Origin: an uncultured Opitutia bacterium
GTDB lineage: Bacteria > Verrucomicrobiota > Verrucomicrobiia > Opitutales > Opitutaceae
Direction: 5' to 3'
NCBI GenBank assembly: GCA_903825285.1
Contig: CAIJZY010000002.1
Coordinates: forward strand, 1 to 36,448
Length of the DNA stretch: 36,448 nucleotides
The position numbers were made by a program, and so were the translations under genes. Position 1 is the stretch's first letter, and every line of letters begins with the position of its first letter. The notes under the pieces were generated by a model. The model was not told the origin of the DNA and did no database searches. It saw nothing but the letters and a program-made list of their open reading frames with translations. Positions 14,805 to 31,195 of this stretch are shown here, in pieces.

Positions 14805-16961
14805 ATGCAGGAACACACCTCCAAGCCGTTCCCCCCGGCGCACGACAAGGACGAGTCGCCGATCGAGCGGCGCACGCTCCGCGACTACTACATCATCCTC
14901 CGGGAGAGAATGTGGATCGCGCTGCCGCTGGCGCTGATCGTCGCCCTCGGCCTCGGCTACTGGAAGGCGCGCCAGCCGAAGATGTACCAGGCGGTCGCCA
15001 CGATGCAGTTCGAGAAACCGGAAACCCTCGTCACGACCCAGGGGGTCGTCGACCCGGCCGTTCGCAACGAAACCGAGCTCCGCACCAATCTCGAGAAACT
15101 GAACAGCCAGCGGCTGCGCACGCGCGTCGTCGAGTCGTTCACCCCCGACGAGATCCGGACCCTCCAGCGCCCGTACCTCAAGAACCTCAAGCCCGGCCAG
15201 GCTGTCCCGTCGGCCTCCGACTGCCTCGGCGCGGTGAACATCGACGCCGCCCGCAACAGCCTCCTCATCAGCGTCGTCGTCCGCCACCCCGACCCGACCG
15301 CCGCCGCGCTGGTCGCCAACCAGTTTGTCAGCCAGTTCTTCAGCTACCTCGCCGACTACTACGGCGGGCGCAGCGAGACCGGCGTCGAGTTCCTCCGCGC
15401 GCAGGCCGACCGCCTCGGCAAGGACGCGGCCGACGCCGAGCAAAAGCTGATGGCGTACAAGAAGGAGCACAACCTCGTCTCCCTCGACAACAGCACCAAC
15501 ATCATCGGCACGCGCCTGACCACGGTGAATGCCGCGCTCACCACCGCGCGGCTCAACCGCATCAACCTCGAGACTTCCTACGCGCAGGTCACCACCTACC
15601 AGAAGGAGAAGCGCGACCTGACGGAGATCTCCTACATCGCCGAGCATTCCACGGTGCCGACCCTCAAGAGCCAGCTCTCCGGCCTGCTCCAGACCCAGTC
15701 GGTCTACGCCGAGCGCTATCTCGAGCGCCACCCGAAGATGATCGACCTGTCCAACCAGATCGCCGTCGTCCAGGACCAGCTCGACAAGGCGATCGAGCTC
15801 GCCGTCGCCGACCTTGCCACGCGCCTCGCCGAGGCCCGCCAGAGCGAGACCAACCTCCAGGCCGAGTACGCCGACGCCGAGAAGGACTCGCTCAAGCTCG
15901 GCGACCTCGGCGTCGCCTACAAGACCCTCGAGAACCAGGCCAACGTCGCCAAGGGGAACTACGTCCAGATCCTCAACCGCCTCAACGAGACGACCACCTC
16001 GCGGAACATCGAGAAGATCCCCCTGCACCCGCTCGACCCCGCCGTCGTCCCCAGCGTCCCCTACGAGCCCGACCTGTCCCATATCCTCCGCACCTGCCTC
16101 GGCGTCGGCCTGCTCGTCTTCTTCGCCGTCGCCATCGGCCTGAGCTTCATCGACGACCGCATCAAGAGCGCCTGGGACGTCGAGTCCTTCATCGGCGCCA
16201 ACCTGCTCGGCATCATCCCCGACCTCACCAGCGCCAAGGACGACGAGAAGTACAATCTCATGCTCAGCGGGCAGCAGATGCCCGGCGTCGAGGCCTTCCT
16301 TAGCGTCTACAGCTCGGTCAAAATCCACTCCAAGCTCGATTTTCCCAAGTCCATCCTCGTCACCAGCACCATCCCGGGCGAGGGCAAGACCCTGATCTCG
16401 TGCAATCTCGCCGGCTCATTCGCGCGCCACGGCAAGCGGACGCTGCTCATCGACTGCGACCTCCGCCGCCCGATGCTGCACCGGCATTTCAAGCAGACGA
16501 ACAACACGGGCCTCATCACCTGGTTCGAGGCCGGTGCCAACCTGGAGCAGGACCTGACCACCAACCCGAGCCTCGGCATCATCAAGATCAGCGACAACCT
16601 CTCGCTGCTCTGCTCCGGCGGCCGCTCCAAGAGCCCGACCGAGCTGCTGGAGAGCCCCCTGTTCGGCCAGCTGCTTGAGCGCTGCAAGAAGCAGTACGAC
16701 CTCGTCATCATCGACTCTCCCCCGCTCGGCGCCGTCACCGACAGCCTGCTCATCGCCGAGCGCACCGACGAGGTCATCTACGTCTGCCGCTTCAACCGCG
16801 CCTACCGGAAGCACATTCGCCTCTACATGAAGGCGCTCCGGAACGGGAAAAACGAGGTCCTCGGCGTCGTCCTCAACGGCCTCTCCCCGCGGCGCGTGGA
16901 ATACTACACGAACTACCGGTACTACCTGAGCTACAAGAAATATTACGGGTCGCAGGGTTGA
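14805..16961 (+). CDS. Wzz/BY-kinase polysaccharide co-polymerase
   Basis: This 718-residue inner-membrane protein fuses a Wzz chain-length domain with a cytoplasmic bacterial tyrosine kinase. One membrane helix lies near residues 43-58, a long periplasmic coiled-coil region follows (about 190-400), and a second helix lies at about 425-450. The kinase domain shows Walker A PGEGKT (524-529), Walker A' LLIDCDLRRP (Asp550, Asp552) and Walker B LVIIDSPP (Asp637). The last 23 residues contain eight tyrosines, the autophosphorylated cluster that controls oligomer cycling in BY-kinases. It is the last gene of the module and works with the export protein upstream. No glycosyltransferase, flippase or phosphatase gene is next to it, so the rest of the pathway is elsewhere. 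Confidence 0.95.
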   Translation: MQEHTSKPFPPAHDKDESPIERRTLRDYYIILRERMWIALPLALIVALGLGYWKARQPKMYQAVATMQFEKPETLVTTQGVVDPAVRNETELRTNLEKLNSQRLRTRVVESFTPDEIRTLQRPYLKNLKPGQAVPSASDCLGAVNIDAARNSLLISVVVRHPDPTAAALVANQFVSQFFSYLADYYGGRSETGVEFLRAQADRLGKDAADAEQKLMAYKKEHNLVSLDNSTNIIGTRLTTVNAALTTARLNRINLETSYAQVTTYQKEKRDLTEISYIAEHSTVPTLKSQLSGLLQTQSVYAERYLERHPKMIDLSNQIAVVQDQLDKAIELAVADLATRLAEARQSETNLQAEYADAEKDSLKLGDLGVAYKTLENQANVAKGNYVQILNRLNETTTSRNIEKIPLHPLDPAVVPSVPYEPDLSHILRTCLGVGLLVFFAVAIGLSFIDDRIKSAWDVESFIGANLLGIIPDLTSAKDDEKYNLMLSGQQMPGVEAFLSVYSSVKIHSKLDFPKSILVTSTIPGEGKTLISCNLAGSFARHGKRTLLIDCDLRRPMLHRHFKQTNNTGLITWFEAGANLEQDLTTNPSLGIIKISDNLSLLCSGGRSKSPTELLESPLFGQLLERCKKQYDLVIIDSPPLGAVTDSLLIAERTDEVIYVCRFNRAYRKHIRLYMKALRNGKNEVLGVVLNGLSPRRVEYYTNYRYYLSYKKYYGSQG

Positions 16962-17045
16962 GCGGAGAGTCGATATCGGATACCGGACAACGGAGGTTGG
17001 AGGGGAACATGGAGGGCGTCGCGCTGACGGGATCGGGCCACGCGC

Positions 17046-17073
17046 CTTTCAACTTTCAACTTTCCACCTTCAA
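17046..17073. repeat. 7-nt-period tandem repeat A
   Basis: Four consecutive heptads, CTTTCAA twice, then CTTTCCA and CCTTCAA, lie 16 nt before the GTG of lpxI. A purine-rich stretch with a similar but poorer 7-nt rhythm (GGAGGTT then GGAGGGG) lies at about 16990-17010 and may be the opposing arm. The rest of the 128-bp spacer after the BY-kinase gene holds nothing else I recognise. Confidence 0.7.
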
Positions 17074-17089
17074 CCCATAGTCAACGTCC

Positions 17090-17938
17090 GTGCCCCCGCT
17101 GTCCGCCTTCCTCCCCGCCGGCTTCGACCCGAAGCGGCCCGTCGCGCTGATCGCCGGCCAGGGCCTCTACCCGGTGCTGGTGGCCGAGGCCGTCCGCCGC
17201 GCCGGCCTGCCGCTGCGGCTCATCGCCTTTGACGAGGAAACGCCGCCCGACCTGATCGCCTCGTTCCCCGAGGCCGAGCGCCGGACGCTGCTGGTGGGCC
17301 AGCTGGGCAAGATGCTCAAGGCCCTCCGCGAATTCGACGCCGGCTACGCCCTCATGGCCGGGCAGATCACGCCCCGCCGCCTGTTCAAGGGCCTCCACCC
17401 CGACCTCAAGGCCACGCAGATCCTGCTCACGCTCAAGCGGCGCAACGCCGAGACCATCTTCGGCGCCATCGCGAGCGAGATCGGCGGCATCGGCGTCCAG
17501 CTGCTCGACGCCCGCGCCTTCCTCGACCTCCACCTTGCCACGCCAGGGGTGATGACCGGGCGCCGCTTTCCCATCGAGGACGATTACCTCCAGCACGGCA
17601 TCACCATCGCCCGCGAGTGCGCCCGCCTCGACATCGGCCAGGGCTGCGTCGTCCGCAAGGGCACGGTCCTGGCCGTCGAGGCCTTCGAGGGCACCGATGA
17701 GATGCTCCGCCGCGCCGGCACCTTCAAGACCGACGGCGCGCTCTTCGTGAAGACCGTCAAGGTCCAGCAGGACTACCGCTTCGACGTGCCCTGCTTCGGC
17801 CAGCGCACGCTCGAGACCATGCGCGAGGCCGGACTGACCGCGGCCGCCCTTGAGGCCGGCCGCGTCATCATGCTCGACCGCCCCGCCGTCCTCGCCCAGG
17901 CCAAGACCTGGGGCATCAGTCTGCTCGGGTTTGAGTGA
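17090..17938 (+). CDS. lpxI: UDP-2,3-diacylglucosamine pyrophosphatase LpxI
   Basis: This 282-residue protein matches the LpxI family (DUF1009), which hydrolyses UDP-2,3-diacylglucosamine to lipid X in lipid A synthesis and replaces LpxH in many phyla. The N-terminal part starts VALIAGQGLYPVLVAEA. The C-terminal domain includes the family features AISLEDD-like FPIEDDYLQHG, GQGCVVRKGTVLAVEAFEGTD and GALFVKTVKVQQD. Length is typical. Start is a GTG at 17090, preceded by heptad repeats and a pyrimidine-rich leader. It shows that the cell makes lipopolysaccharide. It is followed by a bifunctional nuclease gene after 76 bp; no other lpx genes are present. Confidence 0.93.
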   Translation: MPPLSAFLPAGFDPKRPVALIAGQGLYPVLVAEAVRRAGLPLRLIAFDEETPPDLIASFPEAERRTLLVGQLGKMLKALREFDAGYALMAGQITPRRLFKGLHPDLKATQILLTLKRRNAETIFGAIASEIGGIGVQLLDARAFLDLHLATPGVMTGRRFPIEDDYLQHGITIARECARLDIGQGCVVRKGTVLAVEAFEGTDEMLRRAGTFKTDGALFVKTVKVQQDYRFDVPCFGQRTLETMREAGLTAAALEAGRVIMLDRPAVLAQAKTWGISLLGFE

Positions 17939-18014
17939 GCGGCGGTCGTGGGGGGGGGGTTCGAACGAACGCCCTCCGGCTCGCCGCTTGCGCTTTGCCC
18001 CACGCGGGCCAAAG

Positions 18015-18491
18015 ATGGCGCGCATGAACCACGACGTAGTCACCGTCACCGTCAAGGGGGTGATGCCCACCGCCAACGGGTGCGCCGTGTTCCTGGGTGA
18101 TGAGACCAAGACGTTTGTGATCTATGTCGACCACTCGGTCGGCAACGCGATCCAGATGACGATCGAGGGCGTGAAGAAGGACCGGCCGCTCACGCACGAC
18201 CTGATCGGCAGCATCATGCTCGGCCTCGACACCCGCCTCGACCACGTGGTGATCAACGACGCCCACGAGGGCACCTATTTCGCCCGGATCATCCTGCGGA
18301 TGGAAAACGAGCTCGCGAAGAAGATCGTCGAGATCGACGCGCGCCCGAGCGACTCCATCGTTCTCGCCCTGCAGCAGAAGCGCCCGCTGTATGTTTCGCG
18401 CGGGGTGTTCGACACCGCCGAGGACATGACCGAGATCCTCGAGCGCGTCCGCAAGCAGCAGGCGGAGGAGTCCGGCGAGGATGAGCCCTGA
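18015..18491 (+). CDS. Bifunctional nuclease family protein (DUF151)
   Basis: This 158-residue protein fits the BFN/DUF151 family, small cytoplasmic proteins with reported DNase and RNase activity in plants and a homologue solved from Thermotoga. Recognisable parts are FVIYVDHSVGNAIQM, RPLTHDLIGSIM, the ARIIL strand and the family signature EIDARPSDSIVLALQ. A C-terminal acidic tail (QAEESGEDEP) follows. The frame is open upstream to 17850 within lpxI, but similarity begins only near 18015; an ATG at 18024 (MNHDVV) is an alternative. Its last codons overlap the start of the dihydrouridine synthase gene by 11 nt, suggesting translational coupling. Its physiological role in bacteria is unclear. 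Confidence 0.9.
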   Translation: MARMNHDVVTVTVKGVMPTANGCAVFLGDETKTFVIYVDHSVGNAIQMTIEGVKKDRPLTHDLIGSIMLGLDTRLDHVVINDAHEGTYFARIILRMENELAKKIVEIDARPSDSIVLALQQKRPLYVSRGVFDTAEDMTEILERVRKQQAEESGEDEP

Positions 18492-19584
18492 TCCCGCCAC
18501 TCCCGCCCGACGCCTCCCGCCGGGCCTCGTCCCGGGCCTGCCGCTCACCGCGCTGGCGCCGATGCAGGACGTCACCGACCTCGCCTTCATGCGCGTCATC
18601 GCGCACTACGGCGCGCCGGACTACTTTTTCACCGAGTTCTTCCGCGTCCACACGCAGTCCCGGCCGGAGCGGCACATCCTGCGCGCCATCGACGAGAACA
18701 CCACCGGCCGCCCGGTCTTCGCCCAGCTGATCGGCGAGGATCTCGGGCACCTGGCCCGCACCGTGGCCGAGCTGCTCCATCACCCCATCGCCGGCGTCGA
18801 CCTTAACCTCGGCTGCCCCGCCCCCAAGGTCTACAAGAAGAACGTCGGCGGCGGACTCCTCCGCGAGCCGGGCCGCATCGATGAGATCCTCGGCGCCCTG
18901 CGCGCCGCCGTCCCCGGCCTGCTGACCGTCAAGATGCGGGTCGGCTTCGACGACCTTTCGTCCTTCGACCACATCCTCGACCTCATCAACCGCCACCAGG
19001 TTGACCTGCTGAGCGTGCACGGCCGCACGGTGAAGGAGATGTACCGCAGCGAGGTGCGCTACGACGCCATCGCCCGCGCCGTCGCCGCCGTCCGCTGCCC
19101 GGTCCTCGCCAACGGCAACCTGACCTCCGCCACCCGCGCCGCCACCGTGCTGGCCGACACGCGCGCCGCCGGCGTGATGATCGGACGCCACGCGATCCGC
19201 AACCCGTGGATCTTCCGCCAATGCCGCGAGCAGTTCGCCGGCCGGCCGGTGACGCCCGTCACGCTCGGCGAGGTGCGCGAGTACATCGGACGCCTCTATC
19301 GCGAGACCACCGTGCCCGGCCTGGCCGAGCGGCTGCACGTGAACAAGATGAAGAAGTACCTGAACTTTGTCGGACAGAGCGTGGATGCGACCGGCGCGTT
19401 CCTGCACGCCATGCGGCGCACCGAGAGCGAGTCCGCGCTGTTCGCGGTCTGCGACGCGCACCTGCTGGCCGATCCCGGTCGGATCTTCGCCGCCGAGCCC
19501 TACCCGGGGGTCATCGCCCGGCCCAATTGCGAGACACCCGACCCGGCCCCCGACGGCTGCTCGCTCGAAACCATCACCGCGTGA
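18481..19584 (+). CDS. tRNA-dihydrouridine synthase
   Basis: This 367-residue FMN enzyme reduces uridine to dihydrouridine in tRNA D-loops. It shows the FMN-site PMQDVTD (28-34), the catalytic motif LNLGCPAPKVYKKNVGGGLL with Cys112 as the likely proton donor, VKMRVGF, HGRTVKEMY and the phosphate-binding ANGNLTS and GVMIGRHAIRNPW. The C-terminal helical tRNA-binding domain is present (residues about 260-340). The exact Dus subtype cannot be fixed by eye; it is closest in appearance to the DusB-like group. It overlaps both neighbours: the nuclease gene by 11 nt and the LarA gene by a GTGA junction. This three-gene block is thus tightly coupled, although the functions seem unrelated. Confidence 0.94.
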   Translation: MSPDPATPARRLPPGLVPGLPLTALAPMQDVTDLAFMRVIAHYGAPDYFFTEFFRVHTQSRPERHILRAIDENTTGRPVFAQLIGEDLGHLARTVAELLHHPIAGVDLNLGCPAPKVYKKNVGGGLLREPGRIDEILGALRAAVPGLLTVKMRVGFDDLSSFDHILDLINRHQVDLLSVHGRTVKEMYRSEVRYDAIARAVAAVRCPVLANGNLTSATRAATVLADTRAAGVMIGRHAIRNPWIFRQCREQFAGRPVTPVTLGEVREYIGRLYRETTVPGLAERLHVNKMKKYLNFVGQSVDATGAFLHAMRRTESESALFAVCDAHLLADPGRIFAAEPYPGVIARPNCETPDPAPDGCSLETITA

Positions 19585-20843
19585 AAACCCACCTCGATTA
19601 CGGCACCACCGGCCTCGAACTCGACCTCGGCGGACTCAACGCCACGGTCCTTGCGCCCCGTTTCCTGGAGGGATTGCCCGACGAGGCCGCCGCCTTCACC
19701 GCGGCGGTGCGCGCGCCGATCGGCTCACCGCCGCTGCGCGGCCGGATCAAGGCCACCGACCGCGTCGCGGTCGTCATTCCCGACGGCACCCGGCCGCTGC
19801 CGAATGAGCGCCTGCTGCCGTGGCTCTTTGCCGAGCTCAGCCACGTGCCGGCCGAAAACTTCACCATCCTGATCGGCACCGGCACGCACCGCGCCAACAC
19901 GCCGGAGGAGCTCGACCGCATGCTCAGCCCCGCCGTCGCGCGCCGCTACCGGGTCGTCAACCACGTCGCCGACGATCCCGCCACGCTGGCCTCCGCCGGC
20001 CGTTCCGCCCTTGGCTACGAGGTGAAGCTCGCGCGCGATTACGTCGCCGCCGACCGCCGCATCATCATGGGCTTCATCGAGCCGCACTTCATGGCGGGCT
20101 TCTCCGGCGGCTACAAGGCGGTCTTCCCCGGCATTGCGGCGCTCGATGCCATCATGCACTACCACGCCGCCGGCATCATCGGCGACCCGCGCAGCACCTG
20201 GGGCGAGCTCGACGGCAACCCCACCCAGCAGCACGTGCAGGCCGGCGGCTCGCTCCTGCCGGTGGATTTCTGCGTCAACGTCACCCTCAACACCAAGCGC
20301 CAGATCACGCGCTATTTCTGCGGCGAGACGCTCGCCGCCCACCGCGCCGGCTGCCAGTTCGTCAAGGCCACGGCCATGAGCGCATGCGCCCATGACTTCC
20401 CCGTCGTCGTCACGACCAACAGCGGATACCCGCTCGACCAGAACCTCTACCAGACTGTCAAGGGCATGGCCGCCGCCTCCCGCATCGTCCGCCCCGGCGG
20501 GCTGATCGTCACCGCCGCGCGCTGCAACGACGGCTTCCCCGCCCACGGCAACTTCCGGAAGCTCGTCGAGGCATCCAGCTCCGCCCGTGAACTCATGGAC
20601 CGCATCATGACGCCGGGATTCTCCATGCTCGACCAGTGGCAGGCCCAGCACCTCGCCATGGTCCTGCTCAAGGCCCGGGTCGCCCTCCGCAGCGAGCTGG
20701 CCGACGCCGACGTGCGCCGCGCCCACCTGCTGCCGGTGCGCGATGTGCGCGCCGCCATCGATGACGAGCTGGCCCGCATCGGCCGCGACGCCCCCGTCGC
20801 CGTATTGCCCGAGGGCCCGCTCACGATCCCGTACCTCGCCTGA
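19581..20843 (+). CDS. larA: LarA-family nickel-dependent racemase
   Basis: This 420-residue LarA-like protein belongs to the family that racemises or epimerises 2-hydroxyacids (lactate, malate, gluconate and others) using a nickel-pincer nucleotide. His103 (GTGTHR), His169 and Lys179 (PHFMAGFSGGYK) align with H108, H174 and K184 of Lactobacillus LarA; the 10-residue His-Lys spacing is exact. N-terminal Rossmann-like DUF2088 features (VAVVIPDGTRPLPN) are present. The frame is open upstream to 19206 within the dus gene, but the GTG at 19581 overlapping the stop (GTGA) gives the family N-terminus. No larB, larC or larE is nearby, so cofactor synthesis must be encoded elsewhere. The substrate is not predictable: the family is diverse. 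Confidence 0.9.
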   Translation: MKTHLDYGTTGLELDLGGLNATVLAPRFLEGLPDEAAAFTAAVRAPIGSPPLRGRIKATDRVAVVIPDGTRPLPNERLLPWLFAELSHVPAENFTILIGTGTHRANTPEELDRMLSPAVARRYRVVNHVADDPATLASAGRSALGYEVKLARDYVAADRRIIMGFIEPHFMAGFSGGYKAVFPGIAALDAIMHYHAAGIIGDPRSTWGELDGNPTQQHVQAGGSLLPVDFCVNVTLNTKRQITRYFCGETLAAHRAGCQFVKATAMSACAHDFPVVVTTNSGYPLDQNLYQTVKGMAAASRIVRPGGLIVTAARCNDGFPAHGNFRKLVEASSSARELMDRIMTPGFSMLDQWQAQHLAMVLLKARVALRSELADADVRRAHLLPVRDVRAAIDDELARIGRDAPVAVLPEGPLTIPYLA

Positions 20844-20862
20844 GTCGGAGAGAGGCGGGAGA

Positions 20863-20971
20863 TCAGAGGTCAGATGTCAGAGGTCAGACGTCAGGTGCCG
20901 GAGAGCCCGGCACGGTGCTGGGACTAGATACGAAATCTGACATCTGAATTCTGACCTCTGAACTCTGACGT
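20863..20971. repeat. 7-nt-period inverted repeat B between convergent genes
   Basis: The left arm at 20863-20897 has five heptads of consensus TCAGANG. The right arm at 20937-20971 has five heptads of consensus CTGANNT, the reverse complement. Between them a perfect 7-bp hairpin (GTGCCGG/CCGGCAC, 20895-20913, loop AGAGC) is centred just inside the left arm. The whole could fold as one long imperfect cruciform or RNA hairpin in the 134-bp spacer between the larA and sufT stops. It may act as a bidirectional terminator, although no T-run is present. Confidence 0.85.
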
Positions 20972-20977
20972 CGGGCT

Positions 20978-21502
20978 TCACTCCAGTCCCAGCGCCTTCC
21001 GCCCCTCGGCGGAGATCATCTGGGGCGACCAGACCGGGTCCCACACGATGTGGACCTTGGCCGACTCCACGCTCGGCAGCGCGGCAATTTTCTGGCGCGC
21101 ATCCTCCGCGATGACCGGGCCCATGCCACAGCCGGGCGCGGTGAGGGTCATGCGGACCTCCACGCTGTGCCCTCCGCCCGACTTTTCGACGGACAGGTCG
21201 TACACCAGTCCGAGATCAACAATGTTCACCGGGATCTCGGGATCAAAGCAGCTGCGCAGCGCGGTCCAGACGGCCGCCTCGCTAAATTCATTGGCGGTCG
21301 GAGCGGTCTCCGCCGCGGGCGCATAGCCCTCCAGTGCCCCGGCCTGCTCGGCCGGGATGCGGAACAGGCCCTGGTCGGTGCGCACGGTCAGGTTGCCGCC
21401 GAGGGTCTGGGTCACGAACACCGCGGTGCCGGCGGCGAGTGTGACGCTGTCGCCCGCGGGAATGATCGTCGCCGTGACGGCGCGGGAAAGGGTGTGGGTC
21501 AT
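20978..21502 (-). CDS. sufT: Putative Fe-S cluster assembly protein SufT
   Basis: This 174-residue protein fits SufT, a DUF59/MIP18-type factor that helps mature Fe-S proteins in Suf-using bacteria. The N-terminal part (about 1-70) is the SufT-specific extension with a small beta domain (IIPAGDSVTLAAGT, NLTVRTDQGLFRI). The C-terminal DUF59 domain (about 75-165) has FDPEIPVNIVDLGLVYDL and MTLTAPGCGMGPVIAEDAR, with the conserved Cys of the family, and ends VHIVWDPVWSPQMIS. It follows sppA by 4 bp and shares its transcript. No suf operon is nearby. Confidence 0.92.
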   Translation of the reverse strand: MTHTLSRAVTATIIPAGDSVTLAAGTAVFVTQTLGGNLTVRTDQGLFRIPAEQAGALEGYAPAAETAPTANEFSEAAVWTALRSCFDPEIPVNIVDLGLVYDLSVEKSGGGHSVEVRMTLTAPGCGMGPVIAEDARQKIAALPSVESAKVHIVWDPVWSPQMISAEGRKALGLE

Positions 21503-21506
21503 GGGC

Positions 21507-23324
21507 TCAGTGCAGGCTCAGCTCGAGCGGCATGCGGGCGTAGACGCCCTGGGGATCGTTGAAGGACTGGAGCAGCTTCACTTCCTCCTGGAGGCGCGCG
21601 GCCACCTGGCCGGCGAGGCCCTGGCTGCTGGCGCGGCCGTTCGGGTGCATCCGCTCCATGAACTCGCCGATCGCCTCGGCCAGCTCCTTCTTCCGCGGAA
21701 ATTCCACCAGCCGGTAGTTCTTGCCCAGCTTGGCCGACGAGGCGGCGTAGCGGACCGCGGAGTCGAGCCCGCCGATCTCGTCCACCAGGCCGAGCTTCAG
21801 CGCCTCGGACCCGGACCACACGCGGCCCTGGGCAATCTCGCGCACAAAATCGAGCTTCAGGTGCCGGGCCTCGGCGACCTTGCCGGTGAACTCCTCGTAA
21901 ACCCAGTCCACCATCCGCTGCAGCACCGCCAGCTCCTCGTCGGTCTTCGGCCGCGTGATGGTGAGGGCGCCGGCAAACTTGCCGGTCTTCACCGAGTCGA
22001 AGGTGACGCCGAAATCGTTGGCGAGCTTCTTCACGTCAAACTGGATCCCGAACACGCCGATCGAGCCGGTGATGGTCGTCGGTTCGGCAAAGATGCGGTC
22101 GCTGTACGCGGAGATCCAGTAGCCGCCCGAGGCCGCGTAGCTGCCCATGGACACCACGACAGGCTTCACCTTCCGCGCCAGGCGGATCTCGCGCTGGATC
22201 GCCTCCGAGGCCGAGACGCTGCCGCCGGGGCTGTTCACGCGGAGCACGATGGCCTTGACGGAATCGTCCTGCCGCAGCTGCCGCAGCTCGCGGGAAAACT
22301 TGTCGCCGCCCACCTCGCCGGCCTCGCCCTCGCCGTCCACGATCGAGCCCTCGGCATAGACCAGCGCGATGCGGTCCGACCGGCCCAGCGTCATCCCGCC
22401 CGGGCTGTGCTCCGCGCGGTCGGCGGCGGTCTTGGCATAATTGGCGAGCGTCACCTGCTTGAACGCCTCCTTCGAGCCCTTGCGCCCGGTCTTCTCCTTG
22501 AGCTCGTCGAGCACCTCGTCGCGGTAGGCGATCCGGTCCACCAGCTTGCCGGCCTTCGCGGCCGCGGGGCGAATCAGGCCCTCGGCGTCCACCGTGGCCT
22601 GCAGCGCCGCCGGCGTCACGCCGCGGCTCCTCGCCATGTCGGCCACCAGGCTGCCCCAGACGTCGTCGAGCAGCTTCTGGATCTGCTCGCGGTTCTCCGG
22701 ACTCATGTCCTTGCGGGTGTAGGGCTCGACGTAGGACTTGTACTTGCCGACGCGGGTCACCTGCACGCCGATGCCGTACTTCTCGAACGCGCCGGCGAAG
22801 AACATCGGCTCGCTCGCGAGGCCGGGCATGAGGATCATGCCGTACGGGTCGAGCACCACCTCGTCGGCCACGGACGCCAGGTAGTAGTCGCGGGTCTGGA
22901 CAAAATTGAGGTAGGCCTTCACGGGCTTGCCCGAGGCCTTGAACTCCGCGAGCGCGTTGCGCACGTCCTTCAGCGCGGCGAAGCCCGTGCCGAAGCCCTC
23001 GGGCGCGAGCGAGCCTTTCAGCAGCACGCCCGCGATGCGGTCGTCATGCGCCGCCGCCCGCAGCGCGCGGGTCACAGTGCGCAGCTGCAGCGTCTCGTTG
23101 CGTCCGCCCCGGAAGATGCTCAGGTCCACCAGTGGCGGGCTGTCCGTGATGTTGGCCTCGAGATCGAACACGAGGTACGAGCCCTTCTCCACCGTCTGGG
23201 TCTTCTGCTGGTTGCCGAGGGCGGCGATCGCCCCGATGAACCCGATAAACAGCAGCGTGCCGCCGAACGCGAAGATCACAAGGGCCGCCAGCGCGCCCAG
23301 CATGGAGGTGAGGAAGTTCTTCAT
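21507..23324 (-). CDS. sppA: Signal peptide peptidase SppA, long form
   Basis: SppA degrades leftover signal peptides in the inner membrane, with its active site facing the periplasm. The 605-residue length and two-domain layout match the 67-kDa form. An N-terminal membrane helix spans about residues 9-35. In the N-terminal domain Lys196 (VGKYKSYVEPY) is the general base. In the C-terminal domain Ser399 (GSYAASGGYW) is the nucleophile, preceded by RVNSPGGSV and followed by TITGSIGVFG. Two upstream ATGs (23336, 23378) are in frame; 23324 (MKNFLTSMLG) places the helix normally. It is cotranscribed with sufT, 4 bp apart, and is divergent from the gene at 23531 across 206 bp that should hold both promoters. 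Confidence 0.94.
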   Translation of the reverse strand: MKNFLTSMLGALAALVIFAFGGTLLFIGFIGAIAALGNQQKTQTVEKGSYLVFDLEANITDSPPLVDLSIFRGGRNETLQLRTVTRALRAAAHDDRIAGVLLKGSLAPEGFGTGFAALKDVRNALAEFKASGKPVKAYLNFVQTRDYYLASVADEVVLDPYGMILMPGLASEPMFFAGAFEKYGIGVQVTRVGKYKSYVEPYTRKDMSPENREQIQKLLDDVWGSLVADMARSRGVTPAALQATVDAEGLIRPAAAKAGKLVDRIAYRDEVLDELKEKTGRKGSKEAFKQVTLANYAKTAADRAEHSPGGMTLGRSDRIALVYAEGSIVDGEGEAGEVGGDKFSRELRQLRQDDSVKAIVLRVNSPGGSVSASEAIQREIRLARKVKPVVVSMGSYAASGGYWISAYSDRIFAEPTTITGSIGVFGIQFDVKKLANDFGVTFDSVKTGKFAGALTITRPKTDEELAVLQRMVDWVYEEFTGKVAEARHLKLDFVREIAQGRVWSGSEALKLGLVDEIGGLDSAVRYAASSAKLGKNYRLVEFPRKKELAEAIGEFMERMHPNGRASSQGLAGQVAARLQEEVKLLQSFNDPQGVYARMPLELSLH

Positions 23325-26887: not shown

Positions 26888-27001
26888 CAGGGAGCAAGTA
26901 ACAAGGCCCAGGGGACAAGTGGCAAGGTGGTCAGCCTGAACGCCACCCTGATGGGGATGCCTCGCGGACGATCCCTTGCCATCTGCCACCTGTCACTTGG
27001 C
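26888..27001. repeat. 7-nt-period inverted repeat C between convergent genes
   Basis: The left arm at 26888-26929 has six heptads starting CA(A/G)G, among them CAAGTAA, CAAGTGG and CAAGGTG. The right arm at 26974-27001 has four heptads of consensus NCTTGNC (for example CCTTGCC, ACTTGGC), roughly the reverse complement of the left. The arms flank 44 nt with no recognisable content. The element fills the spacer between the stops of the dapF homologue (plus) and the redoxin gene (minus). Confidence 0.8.
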
Positions 27002-31051: not shown

Positions 31052-31068
31052 CCGCAAGGTGCAGTCAG

Positions 31069-31103
31069 CGAACGCCGAGCTTCGAGCTACGAATTCCGAA
31101 CCA
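31069..31103. repeat. 7-nt-period tandem repeat D
   Basis: Five heptads of consensus CGA(A/G)NNN (for example CGAACGC, CGAGCTT, CGAATTC) end at the A of the start codon of the small membrane peptide. No clear opposing arm was found. The element lies 17 nt after the exosortase stop. Confidence 0.7.
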
Positions 31104-31195
31104 TGCCCCTGCGTGTCACCGCCATCGAGCGCCGGATCCTCGCCGTGCTCGCCGCCACCCTCGTCCTGGGGCTGATCGGGCTGGCCGTGCTGTGA
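31103..31195 (+). CDS. Small single-helix membrane peptide
   Basis: This 30-residue peptide has a short basic head (MPLRVTAIERR) and one hydrophobic helix (ILAVLAATLVLGLIGLAVL) running to the C-terminus, as in small inner-membrane proteins with a cytoplasmic N-terminus. It follows the exosortase stop by 51 nt on the same strand. The composition of the helix supports coding, but such short frames arise by chance in GC-rich DNA, so it is only a candidate. I recall small helical peptides near exosortases in related bacteria, but this is not verified here. It may be an accessory subunit of the exosortase. Confidence 0.45.
   Translation: MPLRVTAIERRILAVLAATLVLGLIGLAVL

Follow-up and report, generated by a model that had tools for sequence, protein, structure and literature searches.

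The inverted heptad repeat between the two genes at positions 20,863 to 20,971 of the window (the whole 36,448-nt stretch of an uncultured Opitutia genome analysed here) is probably one copy of a genome-wide population of elements, mostly 100–140 nt long, in which two opposing arms of 7-nt units surround a usually unique centre. Our favoured reading, to which we give a probability of roughly 0.55, is that these are tolerated palindromic insertion elements, similar to REPINs, MITEs or Rickettsia palindromes, with arms of 7-nt period. Insertion elements are favoured because whole units are gained and lost between related species, because one family carries a dispersed common core, and because copies are found translated in frame within coding sequence.

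The first-pass annotation had described the window element as five heptads facing five. On direct reading of the sequence this is correct for the right arm (TCTGACA, TCTGAAT, TCTGACC, TCTGAAC and TCTGACG, or five YNTCTGA heptads), while the left arm comprises four complete units (TCAGAGG, TCAGATG, TCAGAGG and TCAGACG) and a broken fifth. The same reading gives different free heptad positions in the left and right arms and a centre in which the perfect 7-bp stem encloses AGAGC (Table 1). Of the flanking genes, we take the FeS-assembly gene to be SufT-like by name. When positions 20860–20972 are folded as RNA, either strand forms one long hairpin of −57.8 or −55.7 kcal/mol, with z-scores of −6.3 and −6.6 against 200 dinucleotide shuffles per strand. 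A scan of 16900–21600 yielded no terminator-like site or T-run tail at the element and two terminator-like sites elsewhere, against 1.5 expected. At gathering cut-offs, the sole Rfam match in the whole window is a tRNA away from the element. The claim that several other spacers in the window share the period stands for one clear case, the CTTTCAA array located just 5' of a gene called at 17090, and falls short for three weak arrays (16953–17007 and 31061–31110 at 19/28, 26891–26929 at 17/28). The weak arrays carry no weight alone because lag 6 is no less frequent at the loose 17/28 cut-off, where the non-coding stretches of the window hold 6 arrays at lag 7 and 7 at lag 6.

Table 1. Positions within the window of the paired-heptad element, its parts, its flanking genes and a second heptad array.
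Feature	Position	Strand	Basis or remark
Left arm, TCAGANR heptads, four complete plus a broken fifth (TCAGG)	20863..20895	+	lag-7 identity 24/28
Perfect 7-bp hairpin GTGCCGG / CCGGCAC	20895..20913	.	minus-strand fold; shifted form in plus-strand fold
Rest of centre, locus-specific	up to 20935	.	sequence reading
Right arm, five heptads, TCAGANN on minus strand	20936..20970	-	lag-7 identity 22/28
Whole paired-heptad element as detected	20847..20979	.	fills 134-nt gap between two stop codons
Lactate racemase (LarA)-like flanking gene	19581..20843	+	Pfam Lar_N 1e-56, LarA_C 3.9e-31
FeS assembly P-like flanking gene	20978..21502	-	Pfam FeS_assembly_P 8.8e-18
Second heptad array, CTTTCAA	17033..17082	.	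21/28 at lag 7; single arm by detection criterion

The lag-7 signal had been expected to exceed that of shuffled intergenic DNA across the genome, and it does so by a wide measure. In an 836,448-nt sample of the window's own genome (G000; 3.74 Mb in 62 contigs), of which 133,683 nt are intergenic, arrays with at least 20/28 equal positions at a given lag number 66 at lag 7 in intergenic DNA, against a mean of 0.3 in 20 dinucleotide shuffles. Lags 8, 6 and 9 give 1, 1 and 5 arrays, lags 4–6, 8 and 10–13 give 0 to 3, and at the multiples 14 and 21 there are 31 and 11. A same-genus species, G008, holds 24 arrays at lag 7 and 0 to 3 at the other lags from 4 to 13, while further relatives gave 6 arrays in 100 kb (G017), 1 in 100 kb (G010), 2 in 60 kb (G007) and 0 in 100 kb (G018). 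The genome matches the pattern TCAGANNTCAGANNTCAGA, which requires three consecutive TCAGA heptads, at 28 places and its backwards reading at none, and such triples occur in 12 of the 57 genomes searched, own included, equivalent to 11 of 56 relatives.

Most arrays are paired. With a partner accepted at 16/21 positions or more within 300 nt, an inverted partner was found for 43 of the 55 arrays lying in the first 436 kb, a direct one for 4 and none with a shuffled word, so that the arms at one locus are usually complementary, as had been proposed. The full 836 kb holds 38 paired elements and 15 single arrays. The left-arm words of the paired elements are GTAGYGR (12), TCAGANR (8), CGAACGY (8) and GTTGAAR (6), making 34, with the remainder consisting of one CGAACGY element of reversed polarity and three elements with other words; arm polarity is thus fixed in 34 of the 35 elements of the four families. 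These families share a build and the word varies between loci, which bears out the suggestion that the period rather than the word is common. The accompanying idea of a locus-specific consensus had to be abandoned, as each of the four families recurs at several loci. A GGG tract is absent from the consensus of all four words. This bears on G-quadruplex elements, the terms in which the Xanthomonas GGGAATC heptads are discussed (Rehm et al. 2015, PMC4692102): the period, the convergent pairing and the stop-proximal placement are as in Xanthomonas, but the four main words have their build and placement in common without any such tract, and we regard a quadruplex role as extremely improbable.

The CGAACGY family provides the clearest view of dispersal: at unlinked loci its copies have, like MITEs, inverted repeats at their ends and an interior in common. 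One CGAACGY element used as a BLAST query returned 85 matches (E up to 10), of which many are full-length. In an alignment of 19 copies, inspected by eye, a core can be recognised (GGATCGTCCCGCGGC...GCCGCGCGCTGGAATTCACTTC), the flanks are unrelated and the arms differ by whole heptads, and no target duplication was noticed in this alignment, which was judged by eye only. A common core was not seen in the TCAGANR, GTTGAAR and GTAGYGR families, so dispersal by copying is shown for CGAACGY alone. The alternative is that nothing moves and that arrays grow in place by 7-nt slippage, the second arm arising by template switching and the repeated words reflecting sequence preferences. Copies that differ by whole heptads are in keeping with slippage, but it does not account for many loci of one genome sharing both word and polarity, nor for a conserved core at unlinked loci, and the mismatched free positions of the window arms are unlike a fresh template switch. 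We consider in-place slippage distinctly unlikely.

The elements are placed at gene ends. According to a caller trained on recognisable genes, the 38 paired elements comprise 25 in gaps flanked by same-direction genes, 8 in convergent gaps, 4 in gaps called divergent and 1 inside a gene, so the convergent setting reported for the window element is accurate for that copy and is not the rule. One of the four 'divergent' elements lies in reality inside a WD40 gene, the false call arising because the caller missed the N-terminal part of that gene, and it is counted among the five of 37 that are not stop-adjacent. The other 32 of the 37 elements called intergenic are no more than 30 nt from a stop codon, against 18% of random intergenic sites (p 3e-19), and 19/37 are no more than 30 nt from a start, against 21% of random intergenic sites. 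Single arrays are not stop-adjacent, with 3/12 near a stop and 2/12 near a start. Stop adjacency also marks 11 of the 12 paired elements in intergenic DNA of G008. Once the element is subtracted, the remaining gap is short (median 21 nt); element-free gaps have a plain median of 88.5 nt and a length-weighted median of 439 nt, the latter including gaps from missed genes. Within the nuo operon of G000, the gene names of which are presumptive, there are three GTAGYGR elements. An intrinsic terminator is not a general explanation because of these nuo-operon copies and because the window copy is without a T-run tail. Backup stop codons in all frames, considered as a purpose of the stop-side arm, fail for TCAGANR by eye. 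In the G000 sample the Shine-Dalgarno signal at 567 gene starts is weak (78/567 against 52.8 in shuffles), and gene starts are uncertain for that reason; start codons are preceded by a strong C at −1 (0.71) and −2 (0.56).

Placement of this kind is what might be anticipated of selected RNA elements of gene ends, in which the stop-side arm pairs with the start-side arm in a REP/BIME-like manner and the site is kept for that purpose. The stop adjacency, the short gaps that are filled, the copies inside the nuo operon and the strong folds are all consistent with such a role. A further indication comes from GTAGCGAGCAT, an asymmetric motif of the GTAGYGR elements that has 17 matches, against 0 in the backwards control. 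Two of the 17 share one element; 14 point with the gene 5' of them, and the three exceptions lie at distances of 82 nt (one) and over 400 nt (two). This orientation is not predicted by neutral insertion and counts against our favoured reading. Sense RNA is, however, the less stable strand in 17 of the 25 same-direction elements (mean +6.8 kcal/mol, p 0.006; z-scores from single-base shuffles), which counts against selection for pairing. Covariation between CGAACGY arm pairs is also not above shuffles in 16 of the 19 aligned copies (three with a truncated or replaced arm were dropped), with values as high in 42/500 (cells paired), 68/500 (double changes) and 67/500 (score). Together with orthologous junctions that work without an element and copies in frame within coding sequence, these results make a selected RNA element doubtful, and it is likewise rather unlikely that the hairpin would protect the upstream mRNA or couple translation of the neighbour.

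Comparison of orthologous junctions provides evidence of turnover. Between sister species, elements are present or absent as whole units, and junctions are re-used by other words, so that the word does differ between species at the same locus, as the first-pass annotation had asked. At the junction of LarA and FeS-assembly genes, heptad pairs are present in G008 (CGAGTGA) and G004 (GGAGATC-type, 18/28), and G011 has TCTGACY heptads at a contig end; in G001 and G010 the junction is about 30–40 nt, G007 has no array, the neighbour differs in G005 and G009, and G006 gave a paralog only. At the junction of nuoD and nuoE, compared by eye, G000 and G008 share GTAGYGR, of which G007 has a diverged form; a different palindrome occupies G009, G005, G010 and G006, G003 carries CTCCTNN heptads, and only 16–37 nt separate the genes in G001, G002 and G011; no NuoE match was obtained in G004. 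At this one locus, the arms of G000 and G008 are 31/34 and 32/38 identical and the loop 22/42, and this better preservation of arms than of loop favours the RNA-element alternative. Between nuoE and nuoF, by eye, G000 has a GTAGYGR pair and G008 and G001 are empty. In most other same-genus species (L270-L277), this junction carries single-armed AATCGAA/AATCCGC-like heptads that end just before the nuoF start (by eye) and resemble the start-proximal arrays of Beggiatoaceae.

Across 62 conserved junctions compared (54 with G008, 7 with G010 and 1 with G007), elements occupy 7 junctions of G000 and 7 of the relatives, with 4 shared. The word is the same at the nuoD–nuoE junction and at C14:136748–136844, different at the LarA–FeS-assembly junction, and the fourth shared junction has single CTTTCAA-like arrays. 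At C14:27906–28029, a GTTGAAA pair lies below threshold in G000 and GTCGAAR is present in G008. Inverted arms with other periods were also seen by eye at the LarA–FeS-assembly junction of G003 and G002 (L080, L083). There, and at the nuoD–nuoE junction of G009, G005, G010 and G006, the apparent periods are about 9 and 11–12 nt (by eye). Since inverted arms of other periods occupy the same slots, 7 may not be the sole stride.

Turnover extends into protein-coding sequence. What initially looked like a divergent spacer is the intact WD40 gene (C14:78331-79554, minus strand; 407 aa; Pfam WD40 9.8e-31). Its translation runs through two TCAGANR pairs, at approximately residues 64–95 and 139–183, and by eye both inserts follow 'LAW' in successive blades. 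The gene was found in 10 of 12 genomes, own included, and nine orthologs were compared. Loop 1 is short in G001, G003, G006, G008 and G011. Of the other four, two carry pairs (TCAGA-type in G010, AGAAGG-type in G002), G009 has one unpaired array of TCAGCC type, and the TCAGA-like stretch of G005 is degenerate, with no lag-7 signal at 17/28. Units are therefore gained or lost within alignable coding sequence, repeatedly at loop 1 and with different words. At loop 2, a heptad insert was seen in none of the nine orthologs in the protein alignment; at the DNA level this loop was inspected in four of them (G009, G005, G006 and G008). Two of these four, G009 and G005 (L344, L348), have a different palindromic insert there, GTAGGGCGCGTTATCCCTAACGCGCC..., translated in frame.

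Beyond the genus, GTDB species genomes from many phyla contain at least 117 exact runs of four TCAGANR heptads, and the 80 loci listed hold 82 arrays. Among the matches listed, an inverted partner lies within 400 nt downstream in 8 of the 82 arrays and upstream in none, so pairing is not general for this word. Within 554,851 nt of these 80 loci, which were chosen for TCAGA and so bias the lag-7 count, 196 arrays at lag 7 reach 21/28, against 16 at lag 8; another heptad word is present in 33 of the 80, and 17 of 64 such other-word elements are paired. A frame open for at least 20 codons upstream and 80 downstream contains 21 of the 82 listed arrays, and open frames are favoured because TCAGANR lacks stop codons in all forward frames. 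Ten conserved-looking cases among the 21 were scanned and all 10 have a Pfam family; in two alpha-L-rhamnosidases (L154, L156) and a chorismate synthase (L191) the array is inside the domain match. The arrays of L154 and L156, one from a Verrucomicrobia and one from a Kiritimatiellaeota genome, are similarly placed in the N-terminal domain. Both the spread of the word over many phyla and the mostly single-armed state of its arrays are points in favour of in-place slippage, as is a hypothesis linking heptamer excess to the DNA-polymerase active site (quoted in PMC4692102).

For the tolerated insertion elements that we favour, a mechanism may be envisaged in which some factor copies or inserts elements, whole heptads are later added to or lost from the arms, and copies survive selection at the least harmful sites. 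In transcripts the arms could pair into an extended hairpin, with a possible secondary use through effects on mRNA decay or on translation of the neighbours. The lag-7 excess, the pairing, the nearly fixed polarity, the stop adjacency in G000 and G008 and the arrays in open frames of other phyla are further points for insertion elements. On the other side, no mobilising enzyme was found, in that no array lies within about 1.5 kb of the three Y1 transposase matches of the genome, and neither a target duplication (by eye) nor, outside CGAACGY, a common core was seen. More speculatively, and in our view improbably, a single widespread and so far unrecognised bacterial process could write DNA in 7-nt steps, one enzyme or copying reaction making both arrays and facing arms with almost any word at translation-tolerant sites (after stops, before starts and in protein loops), such that lineages carry their own words and the stride rather than the sequence is conserved. 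Heptamer excess in bacteria has, as far as we have seen, no settled cause, and this genus offers a clean test bed: several word families coexist in one genome, G-runs are excluded as a common cause, slots carry different words in sister species, and protein orthologs supply an empty site. The choices between insertion and slippage, and between RNA function and tolerated passenger, thereby become directly testable. The elements also illustrate how operon junctions and protein loops can be remodelled by short inserted palindromes.

Several known repeat systems share part of this architecture. Cyanobacterial STRR are tandem intergenic heptamers, as are the present arrays, although with other words; we do not know of STRR as inverted pairs. 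A REP is a single imperfect palindrome with a tetranucleotide tag and an associated transposase. REP, BIME and REPIN elements resemble ours in being multi-copy, intergenic, inverted pairs of about 100 nt around a variable centre, whereas the arms here are tandem heptads rather than hairpins and GTAG is contained in the GTAGYGR word alone. The three PF01797 (Y1 transposase) matches in the genome gave no REP/RAYT link, since no lag-7 array at 18/28 is present in their 3.2–3.3-kb loci. A GTAG-tagged palindrome pair reminiscent of a classical REP doublet (TGTAGGGCGGGGTC...GACCCCGCCCTACA) is found at G000:C46 ~58460–58560, beside the element at 58351–58457. Rickettsia palindromic elements are inserts of about 100 nt that also occur translated in frame inside protein genes. 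By description the WD40 case is alike, with a palindromic in-frame insert in a conserved gene and, at loop 1, a short loop in five of the nine orthologs; we know of no 7-nt period in the Rickettsia elements. Among the papers listed by full-text literature searches, none deals, to judge from titles and the opening lines of abstracts, with multi-word paired heptads or their in-frame insertion, which is weak evidence of absence.

The TAACTGA direct repeats of Beggiatoaceae are single-armed heptamer arrays that mostly precede start codons directly and sometimes lie in ORFs; they have been described in unrelated phyla, with one inverted case listed (MacGregor 2015, PMC4679880). They are similar in forming heptamer arrays at gene junctions and sometimes in ORFs and, in the part of that account considered here, differ in being of one word, single-armed and start-proximal. 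The closest precedent is in Xanthomonas, and paired opposing arms are not the distinguishing feature they had been taken for, as GGGAATC heptads form 70 and 75 convergent inverted pairs in two species (PMC4692102). Those pairs lie a mean of 28 nt from the 5' neighbouring ORF, with few between divergent ORFs, are stable between the two species in 83% and are generally away from mobile elements (PMC4692102). Common to both systems are 7-nt units with free positions, inverted tandem pairs that converge, intergenic location at many sites, stop-proximal placement and few elements between divergent genes. Already published are thus the bacterial heptamer excess (2007, as cited in PMC4692102) and, for Xanthomonas, inverted heptad pairs near stops. 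Apparently new are the several G-run-free families, the re-use of slots by different words and the in-frame insertion. In contrast to the one G-rich word per genome of Xanthomonas, as described in the part of that account used here, at least four words without G-tracts coexist in the present genome, most arrays are paired, junctions are re-occupied by other words, and copies are carried in frame.
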